DNA of 64,000 bases from Mycolicibacterium rufum (GTDB lineage Bacteria > Actinomycetota > Actinomycetes > Mycobacteriales > Mycobacteriaceae). The stretch covers positions 5,394,001 to 5,458,000 of the forward strand of contig NZ_CP092427.2 in NCBI RefSeq assembly GCF_022374875.2, written 5' to 3'. Below, piece by piece: positions 14,004 to 19,926 of this stretch (its first letter is position 1; every line of letters begins with the position of its first letter). Under the pieces are notes generated by a model. The model made no database searches. It saw nothing but the letters and a program-made list of their open reading frames with translations, and was not told the DNA's origin. The translations under genes and the position numbers were made by a program.

Positions 14004-14996
14004 GTGAAACAGGCCGATCTGGTCCTCTCCGGCGGCGGGGTCAAGGGCATCGCCCTGGTGGGCGCCGTCGCCGCGCTCGTCGACGCGGGCTACGTGCCCC
14101 AGCGCATCTCCGGAACCTCCGCGGGCGCGCTGGTCGGGGCGGTGCTCGCCGCCGCCGCGCAGCACGGTGAATTGACCTCCAGTCAGCTCGAGCAGCTGGC
14201 GCTGCACATCGACTACCGGGTGTTCCTCGACCCCGGGCCGATCGAACGGGTGCCCGTGCTCGGCCCGGCGTTCGGAGTGCTCAGCGGCGCCGGCATCTAC
14301 CGGGGCGAGGCCCTGCGGCGCTGGGTGGCCGACCAGCTCGCCGGTTTCGGGGTGCACACGTTCGCCGACCTGGCCATCGACGACGCGCAGCTGCCGCCCG
14401 AGCAGCGCTATCGACTCGTCGTCACGGTCGCCGACGTCACCCGCGGCGAACTGGTCCGCTTGCCGTGGGACTACCGCCGCGTCTACGGCCTCGACCCCGA
14501 CGAGCAGTCCGTCGCCGACGCCGTGCGCGCGTCCACCGCGATCCCGTTCTTCTACCACCCCGCGACGCTGACCAGCGCCGACGGCGTCACCTCGACCCTC
14601 GTCGACGGGGGGTTGCTGTCGAACTTCCCGATCGACTCGCTGGATCGCACCGACGGCGGCACGCCACGCTGGCCGACCTTCGGCGTGACACTGCTGCCCA
14701 CCCTGCCGGCCGAATCCGACCAGGTGATCCCGGCGCTGCGGCCACTGCGGCTGCTCGGCTCCCCAACGCTGCTCGAGCAGGTGCTGACGACGATCCTGGT
14801 CGGGCGGGACCAGGCCTACCTGAACCAGCCGTGGGTCAGCGCCCGCACGATCCGCATCGACACCCGCGAGGTCGGCGTCCTCGACTTCGACCTGACCGCC
14901 GCCGAGAAGCGCACGCTGTACCGCAAGGGTCTGCGCGCCGGGGAGGACTTCCTCACCACCTGGGACTGGACCGACTACGTCAGGCGGTTCCGCTGA
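14004..14996 (+). CDS. Patatin-like phospholipase
   Basis: A 330-residue serine lipase/acyl hydrolase of the patatin family with a Ser-Asp dyad. The oxyanion loop GGGVKG is at about 11-16, the nucleophile is in GTSAG (about 38-42), and the catalytic Asp is in LVDGGLLSNFP (DGG). No signal peptide or membrane segment is seen, so it is probably cytosolic or injected/peripheral. The start GTG is supported by a leaderless -10 box. It converges on the PAC2 gene with a 4-base gap. Confidence 0.9.
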   Translation: MKQADLVLSGGGVKGIALVGAVAALVDAGYVPQRISGTSAGALVGAVLAAAAQHGELTSSQLEQLALHIDYRVFLDPGPIERVPVLGPAFGVLSGAGIYRGEALRRWVADQLAGFGVHTFADLAIDDAQLPPEQRYRLVVTVADVTRGELVRLPWDYRRVYGLDPDEQSVADAVRASTAIPFFYHPATLTSADGVTSTLVDGGLLSNFPIDSLDRTDGGTPRWPTFGVTLLPTLPAESDQVIPALRPLRLLGSPTLLEQVLTTILVGRDQAYLNQPWVSARTIRIDTREVGVLDFDLTAAEKRTLYRKGLRAGEDFLTTWDWTDYVRRFR

Positions 14997-15000
14997 GGCG

Positions 15001-15879
15001 CTACCGCCCTCGTCTACGCAAGTAGCGCTCGAACTCGGCCGCCAGCGCGTCGCCGTCGATCTTGCCCAGCGCCTCGTTCATGTCCACCTCGGCGTCACCG
15101 CGCTCCTCGAGCGACTGCACGTACTCGGCGATCTCATCGTCCTCGGAGGTCATCTCCGTGACCGCCTGCTCCCATTCCTCGGCCTGGGCGGGCAGATCGG
15201 CCAGCGGCACCTCGATGTCCAGGACGTCCTCGACGCGGCGCAGCAGGGCCACGGTCGCCTTCGGGTTCGGCGGCTGCGACACGTAGTGCGGCACCGCGGC
15301 CCAGAACGTCACCGCGGGAATGCCCGCCTGCACGCACGCGTCCTGGAACACGCCCGCGATCCCCGTCGGGCCCTCGTAGCGGGTTTCCTCGAGGCCGAAC
15401 GTCTTGGCCGAGTCCGGTGAGTAGGCCGCCCCCGACACCGGCACCGGACGGGTGTGCGGCGTGTCGGCCAGCAGCGCGCCCAGGATCACCACGGTCTGCA
15501 CGTTGAGCTTGTCGGCGATGGCCAGCAGTTCGGCGCAGAAGGTCCGCCACCGCATGTTGGGTTCCACCCCGTGCATCAGCACGATGTCGCGGTCGGCGCC
15601 CGGGGGACGGCAGTGCGAGATCCGCATCGACGGCCACACCAGCTCCCGGGTCACCCCGTCCACCTGGCGGATCACCGGACGATTGACCTGGTAGTCGTAG
15701 TAGGCCTCGTCGTCGATCTCGACGATCGTCTCCGCCTCCCAGATCGCGTCCAGGTGCTCGAGGGCATCGCTGGCGGCGTCTCCGGCGTCGTTCCAGCCCT
15801 CGAACGCAGCGACGATGATGGTGTCGCGCAGGTCGGGGAGGTCAGGTCGCTTCGGACCGCCGAAATCCGAGGGGGTCAC
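15001..15879 (-). CDS. PAC2-family protein (proteasome-assembly-chaperone-like; Rv2125-like)
   Basis: A 292-residue PAC2-fold protein. The N-terminal IIVAAFEGWNDAGDAASDAL and central ILGALLADTPHTRPV are the family signatures, and the length equals that of Rv2125. The fold is related to eukaryotic proteasome assembly chaperone 2 and to archaeal PbaB-type proteins; a link to the 20S proteasome 25 kb away is suggestive but unproven. The GTG at 15879 was chosen because TACGCT lies 6 bases before it and the longer frame upstream is not conserved-looking. Confidence 0.88.
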   Translation of the reverse strand: MTPSDFGGPKRPDLPDLRDTIIVAAFEGWNDAGDAASDALEHLDAIWEAETIVEIDDEAYYDYQVNRPVIRQVDGVTRELVWPSMRISHCRPPGADRDIVLMHGVEPNMRWRTFCAELLAIADKLNVQTVVILGALLADTPHTRPVPVSGAAYSPDSAKTFGLEETRYEGPTGIAGVFQDACVQAGIPAVTFWAAVPHYVSQPPNPKATVALLRRVEDVLDIEVPLADLPAQAEEWEQAVTEMTSEDDEIAEYVQSLEERGDAEVDMNEALGKIDGDALAAEFERYLRRRGR

Positions 15880-15885
15880 CAATCC

Positions 15886-15891
15886 AGCGTA
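15886..15891 (-). promoter_or_regulatory. -10 box, leaderless promoter of the PAC2 gene
   Basis: Read on the minus strand, TACGCT is followed by 6 bases and the GTG at 15879. Confidence 0.45.
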
Positions 15892-16082
15892 AGCCCTGGG
15901 TGGGTCAGATGACGGGCATCGACCCGCTCCCCGGGGGACGGCCGGAGAAATAGGCGCGGCGGCCTGCTGGTTAACCTGGAGACCGACGACCCGGCCGCGC
16001 ACGAGAGGCGGGTCGGGGGTTGATCGCAGCGACGAGGTGGGCGTCCAGACGTCGGTCGGGAGACGACGTTAGACTTTTCTCC

Positions 16083-16171
16083 GTCGAGAGGCGTTGCAAC
16101 GGGGTCCGGCGACGAGCCGGAGTTCCCGCCACGCTCGGCAGAGTCAAGGACGCCTTCCGCAATGGAAGGAA
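16083..16171 (+). promoter_or_regulatory. Candidate S-adenosylhomocysteine (SAH) riboswitch and expression platform of metH
   Basis: The leader has the SAH-riboswitch architecture. P1 is GTCGAG (83-88 of this block, 16083-16088) with CTCGGC (16134-16139). Next comes AGGCGTTGCAAC, then a long P2 (CGGGG 16100-16104 with TCCCG 16124-16128, extended by TCCGGC 16105-16110 with GCCGGA 16116-16121), and GCCACGCTCG (family consensus GCCAGGCTCG). A pseudoknot AGGCGTT (16089-16095) with GACGCCT (16149-16155) gives seven pairs that differ in sequence from the classic GAGCGC/GCGCTC pairing yet keep complementarity. CCTTCC (16153-16158) can instead pair with GGAAGG (16164-16169), the Shine-Dalgarno of the GTG start at 16177. 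Ligand binding would hold the pseudoknot, free the ribosome site and turn metH on. A possible -10 (TAGACT, near 16070) precedes it. Confidence 0.72.
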
Positions 16172-16176
16172 CGCAC

Positions 16177-19926
<3,750 letters not shown>

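Follow-up and report, generated by a model that had tools for sequence, protein, structure and literature searches.

The window, that is, the whole 64,000-nucleotide stretch of DNA analysed here, carries metH, encoding the cobalamin-dependent methionine synthase, whose closest named homologue among the matches listed is metH of Mycolicibacterium chlorophenolicum (96% identical). On the opposite strand, at 15001-15945, lies a divergent neighbour gene that matches the proteasome assembly chaperone families TIGR00162 and TIGR00161 below their curated cut-offs, and the open reading frame at 14004-14996 has, by eye, what we take to be a motif of patatin-like phospholipases. The leader of metH contains an element at 16083-16169 whose blocks had been named in a sequence-only reading of this DNA, and all of them are present in the window sequence. 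The leader and its gene are made up as follows:

16070..16075, + strand: -10 promoter hexamer TAGACT, 7 nt upstream of P1 (sequence)
16083..16088, + strand: P1 5' strand GUCGAG, DNA GTCGAG (sequence, RF01057 match, covariation)
16089..16094, + strand: pseudoknot 5' strand AGGCGU, partner 16150-16155
16095..16100, + strand: pocket strand UGCAAC, DNA TGCAAC (sequence, RF01057 match)
16100..16128, + strand: P2 hairpin, variable in length and sequence, with both-side changes in 4 of 6 counted pairs
16128-16137, + strand: GCCACGCTCG block (sequence)
16129..16133, + strand: pocket strand CCACG; A 16131 is A29 and C 16132 is position 30 (G in proteobacterial members)
16134..16139, + strand: P1 3' strand CUCGGC, DNA CTCGGC (covariation)
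16146..16149, + strand: AAGG; G 16148 is position 46 (C in proteobacterial members), the proposed partner of position 30
16150..16155, + strand: pseudoknot 3' strand ACGCCU; bases 16153-16155 also belong to the anti-Shine-Dalgarno (anti-SD) strand
16153..16158, + strand: anti-SD strand CCUUCC, DNA CCTTCC (hairpin arm searches)
16164..16169, + strand: Shine-Dalgarno (SD) sequence GGAAGG (sequence, arm and start-codon scans)
16177..19926, + strand: metH, GTG start at 16177-16179 (TIGR02082, 1731 bits; NF007024, 2152 bits)

The pseudoknot AGGCGT/ACGCCT stands with six pairs, but the seventh pair that had been claimed for it is U-G.

A permissive-threshold scan of 15900-16400 returned the SAH riboswitch family RF01057 as the best Rfam match (16080-16162, 28.7 bits, E 0.0019), one of only two matches at E<=10 in this interval, the other being psaA. 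The leader is also the top RF01057 match genome-wide (E 0.0055), the runner-up scoring 17.6 bits, i.e., 11 bits lower. A covariance-model score, named beforehand as a test of the assignment, is thus present, though under the cut-off: the gathering score of RF01057 is 37 bits, so a default Rfam scan does not report the leader, and over the window such a scan reported one tRNA and nothing else. An order-level relative with the same variant (locus L009) reaches 42.6 bits, and the variant therefore straddles the cut-off.

The genus survey covered 61 genomes, our own and 60 relatives, of which 37 are of the same genus with our own included. RF01057 matched 43 of the 61 at E <= 0.5, some of the weak matches being due to chance, and exceeded its cut-off in one. 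Model R1, built from 31 actinobacterial leaders, mostly of the genus, matched 37 of the 61 at E <= 0.01, including 32 of the 37 same-genus genomes (own counted); metH lies directly downstream of the element in all 32 of these carriers, and a copy over the RF01057 cut-off occurs in one of the 37 genomes found by R1. At its default cut-off, RF01057 under-reports a large group of bacteria. Across the class, R1 matched 74 of 394 genomes at E <= 0.001 (25 of the genus and 49 others); in a 296-genome sample of the phylum its five matches all belonged to the own family (own genome included), with none beyond, and we therefore claim no spread outside the class. Among the matches listed, 22 of 41 actinobacterial metH loci (L039-L077, L094, L102) have the motif and 19 are without it, and the carriers that are not Mycobacterium sensu lato include Nocardioides nematodiphilus, Prauserella isguenensis and metagenome-assembled genomes of Propionibacteriaceae and Nocardioidaceae.

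Five same-genus genomes lacked a match. In two of these (G005 and G008), whose assemblies are fragmentary, no metH was found; in the other three (G010, G015 and G029) the best MetH is 40-41% identical. The divergent metH of these three (loci L225-L227 and L236-L238) adjoins the counterpart of the neighbour gene at 15001-15945, which is 80-85% identical, and no element was found there; the switch is thus missing along with its metH, apparently through an in-place replacement of both, as we infer from this gene order. These metH genes have a -10-like TATCCT six bases upstream of the GTG, and their mRNA may be leaderless.

To what extent conservation of the blocks counts as evidence depends on how the leaders were collected. 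The 50 leaders of alignment A1 were extracted with a strict pattern, which makes their invariant blocks partly a product of construction, and these were not counted. The pattern-independent sets are 30 loci picked by RF01057 and 55 picked by R1, with the provisos that R1 itself was trained on pattern-picked leaders and that five of the 55 (L195-L198 and L202) are places already in the model. All 30 fetched RF01057-picked loci (our own, L001, plus L009-L037) fit the strict block pattern. The G and first C of UGCAAC are presumably G15 and C16 of the structure 3NPQ, the letters at these positions being in agreement; on this presumed numbering, the adenine-holding pocket residues G15, C16 and A29 are present in the window and in all 55 non-genus R1 matches.

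Covariation was counted over 72 model-aligned rows (70 actinobacterial and two proteobacterial; 71 distinct), in an alignment in which P1 and P2 guided the fit, whereas the pseudoknot and the pair 30-46 did not. Cells able to pair made up 97.5%, against 24-45% when the partners were slid. Both sides had changed in nine pairs, compared with 4.2 in shuffles, and in 70 cells, compared with 14.4, values that none of 500 shuffles reached in either case. The last pseudoknot pair alone is C-G in 50 rows, U-A in 17, U-G in 3 and unpaired in 1, with 17 cells altered on both sides. The predicted P1, P2 and pseudoknot topology of an SAH riboswitch is thus supported by covariation, and the pairings, whose conservation in related species had been proposed as a check, are both kept and covarying. 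With RF01057 as the best match, with conservation and with covariation, the assignment to the SAH class has gained comparative support, and the leader of metH is very probably an SAH-class switch sensing SAH.

These data also bear on the suspicion that a GC-rich leader has matched the family by chance. Such a suspicion draws on the score below the gathering score, on a folding energy that is nothing unusual against expectation and is uninformative (z = -0.67), and on the matches of RF01057 to control genomes at loose thresholds (10 of 14 at E<=10; at E<=0.5 one of 14, Corynebacterium glutamicum), from which it follows that weak matches by themselves mean little. However, the helices covary across many genera and R1 matches lie before the same gene well beyond the genus, and we regard the probability of a chance match as negligible.

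The gene neighbourhood of the element is mainly one of SAH recycling. Among 55 non-genus copies with flanks, metH is the next gene in 49. Pfam assigned the long open reading frame after the remaining six to S-adenosylhomocysteine hydrolase (ahcY) in three cases and, once each, to adenosine deaminase, a class I methyltransferase and a MOSC-domain protein. The copies before the last three genes (L189, L192 and L194) are weaker matches of 45-50 bits, and the three genes are possible additional members of an SAH regulon. In proteobacterial genomes RF01057 exceeded its cut-off in 18 of 28, and ahcY lay within the fetched flank of 19 of the 21 matches; the actinobacterial form thus mostly precedes metH, whereas the proteobacterial one mostly precedes ahcY.

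Compared with the proteobacterial type of RF01057 (3NPQ, Ralstonia solanacearum), the actinobacterial form shares the order of P1, P2 and pseudoknot, the UGCRAC and CCA-N-GCUCG pocket strands and the tie to the SAM cycle. It differs in the first pseudoknot pairs, which are mostly A-U and G-C against mostly G-C, then G-C or A-U, in the proteobacterial type, and in having C30-G46 in place of G30-C46. The departure from the family consensus that the sequence-only reading had seen in the window, CCAC for CCAG, is real, yet it concerns two coupled positions and not one, CCAG having become CCAC and AACG having become AAGG: where the proteobacterial type has G30-C46 (Rfam consensus CCAG ... CAACGG), the leader has C30-G46. 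Copies were parsed with UGC, A29, G31 and either C or G at position 46 required and position 30 left free, which left out 18 actinobacterial metH loci without the element, L160 (N in the sequence) and L222 (27 bits, below cut-off). C30-G46 was found in all 120 distinct parsed actinobacterial copies and G30-C46 in 19 of 20 proteobacterial ones, the remaining one (L224) having C30-G46, and a mixed state occurred in none of the 140. A Fisher value for this coupling is blind to descent; fairly counted, there are about two independent events. The covariation suggests that positions 30 and 46 pair in the structure, and the CCAC variant is then probably one half of a compensated change beside the tail of the ligand. 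The exceptional SAH-like element L224 (1501-1577) is the second one of a genome from a Rhodanobacter record, and the protein encoded after it, of 304 aa, had no Pfam match at E<=1e-5; the other copy of that genome, L217, has the classic G30-C46.

The account of the crystal structure in PMC7057144 places the adenine of SAH between C16 and A29, with G15 bonded to the adenine and C46 near the homocysteine tail. A change at position 46 could therefore mean that fold and switch are the same but that recognition of the tail is altered, such that the RNA would mainly bind another adenine compound (adenosine, methylthioadenosine or SAM) or be less selective. The contact of position 46 with the tail in 3NPQ (PMC7057144), set beside a G in all 120 actinobacterial copies, gives this idea some weight, as does the copy before adenosine deaminase. 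Yet the adenine-holding residues are unchanged in the 55 model matches, the downstream genes belong to SAH recycling (49 metH and 3 ahcY of 55), the compensation of the swap speaks for a preserved geometry of the pocket, and L224, with the same swap, shares its genome with the classic-pair copy L217. We consider such a shift of ligand unlikely, and retain SAH as the probable ligand.

How SAH binding would reach translation is suggested by the bases downstream of the pocket. The three bases CCU at 16153-16155 belong both to the pseudoknot 3' strand and to the anti-SD strand. A contiguous hairpin of at least 6 pairs that draws on the pseudoknot strand can form in 75 of 75 copies of a first set (RF01057-picked, metH-listed and class-survey loci) and in 45 of 45 further non-genus copies (second set), compared with 20% and 25%, respectively, when the downstream bases are shuffled; among proteobacterial RF01057 copies it is possible in 10 of 20, against the actinobacterial 120 of 120. 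The arms change in concert (CCUUCC/GGAAGG, CCUCCC/GGGAGG and CCUCCG/CGGAGG), and the Watson-Crick stem formed from a copy's own arms exceeds the mean of 15 foreign arms in 117 of 120 (6.28 vs 4.28), although this match is partly a consequence of constraint on the SD itself. An in-frame start codon follows the 3' arm at a distance of 0-8 nt in 109 of 114 metH copies; for the other five the scan gave no start within 15 nt, namely L021 (49 nt), L035 (55 nt) and L150, L155 and L177, where it halted at an in-frame stop and where, by eye, the start lies 11, 11 and 6 nt downstream of the arm. Covariation of the hairpin columns in the MAFFT alignment A1 was hardly above shuffles, which we read as a misregistration of the non-mycobacterial rows, and the per-sequence search for arms replaced this count. 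The proposal that pseudoknot and anti-SD pairing exclude each other is borne out by the shared bases and by the hairpin in every one of the actinobacterial copies.

We also predicted the openness of the SD with P1 formed and the pseudoknot strands withheld from pairing, a constraint that is a stand-in and not a pseudoknot energy model. Withholding the strands raised predicted openness from 0.003 to 0.55 in the window, in 75 of 75 copies of the first set (mean 0.03 to 0.43) and in 45 of 45 of the second (mean 0.01 to 0.30), though no more than 52 of the 75 and 21 of the 45 gained over 0.3; among five scorable proteobacterial copies openness rose in two, and the mean was unchanged (0.49 to 0.49). 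This rise implies that in the actinobacterial form the SD would be freer with the pseudoknot on. The ON direction that the sequence-only reading had deduced gains comparative support, as a deduction.

The choice of GTG at 16177 over an upstream ATG as the start of metH likewise gains comparative support, given the post-arm starts described above and the lack of conservation of the ATG. In the window this ATG (16162-16164) lies partly in the hairpin loop and partly in the SD; of 74 metH leaders of the first set, 24 have an ATG at its place, 19 of them in frame. The first start-type triplet after GGAAGG, in any frame, is GTG in 45, ATG in 16 and TTG in 7 (68 of the 75 first-set leaders), GGAAGG being absent from the remaining seven. 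Upstream of P1, at a distance of 4-10 nt, TANNNT occurs in 73 of 75 first-set leaders vs 68 of 1500 control windows, and with TAGACT 7 nt before P1 the transcript probably starts at the aptamer or directly beside it.

We propose the following mechanism. When SAH accumulates, it would bind the pocket of UGCAAC, CCACG and AAGG and stabilise the pseudoknot AGGCGU/ACGCCU, which would remove CCU from the anti-SD strand CCUUCC and leave GGAAGG free, allowing MetH to be made; MetH would in turn return homocysteine, derived from SAH, to methionine. Without SAH, the CCUUCC/GGAAGG hairpin would form and translation would be low. The hairpin by itself would repress, and the leader might therefore be conceived as a structured translational attenuator that responds to protein or temperature with no small-molecule ligand, its likeness to the SAH class being due to descent only. 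Nevertheless, pocket bases that are not known to serve P1, P2 or the pseudoknot are kept in all 30 RF01057-picked loci and all 55 non-genus R1 matches, which is more than a simple hairpin would need, and we judge a ligand-free attenuator very improbable. Our preferred reading, in which we have high confidence, is that metH is preceded by an SAH-class riboswitch of actinobacterial type that turns translation ON, with SAH as ligand and the ON direction both deduced from comparison of sequences.

The ahcY copy of L009 (the same place as L195, 1501-1620) has AAGGGCGCCUCCG-UAUC-CGGAGGCGCCUUUUU in place of the anti-SD hairpin, with the pseudoknot strand as the 5' arm. By eye this is a terminator-like 13-pair stem running into UUUUU (-24.6 kcal/mol); a rule-based terminator scan reported no terminator in L009, though it may have counted part of the U run into the stem. 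The metH copy in the genome of L195 (L193) has the anti-SD form. If the terminator is real, the same aptamer would drive transcription before ahcY, likewise as an ON switch.

SAH riboswitches in Mycobacteriaceae were noted by Sun et al. 2013 (PMC3766115), an element of the same class in the same bacterial family that is probably identical to the metH leader; for this element, the available portion of that paper's main text is silent on gene, structure, pocket change and mechanism. The SAM/SAH riboswitch RF01727 shares the adenosyl ligand class but is a different motif, confined to metK leaders in Rhodobacterales according to PMC2864571 and PMC4239095, and it has no match at E<=10 in 15900-16400. 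A pairing of SAH switch and metH is not new in itself, since the SAH riboswitch regulons of Comamonadaceae are described as including metH as a taxon-specific member (PMC4239095). In our searches of open-licence PMC papers we did not find the metH link in mycobacteria, the metH platform, the C30-G46 swap or the actinobacterial spread. A 2025 review on cobamides in Mycobacterium tuberculosis, which does not contain the word SAH, mentions that metE has a cobalamin switch (PMC12713380).

A further reading, which we put forward tentatively and consider rather doubtful, is that of an actinobacterial SAH-riboswitch subclass in which the ligand-contacting pair has become fixed in inverted form (C30-G46) and which may read the homocysteine tail differently, with specificity shifted among SAH, SAM and adenosine compounds, wired to metH by an anti-SD hairpin or, before ahcY, by a terminator-like hairpin. 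If the SAH switch proposed here is true, SAH would exert a specific control over the mycobacterial methionine synthase, in addition to the cobalamin switch already known for metE. The pair in contact with the ligand, changed at both positions in nature, would bear on how SAH riboswitches discriminate between SAH and SAM.
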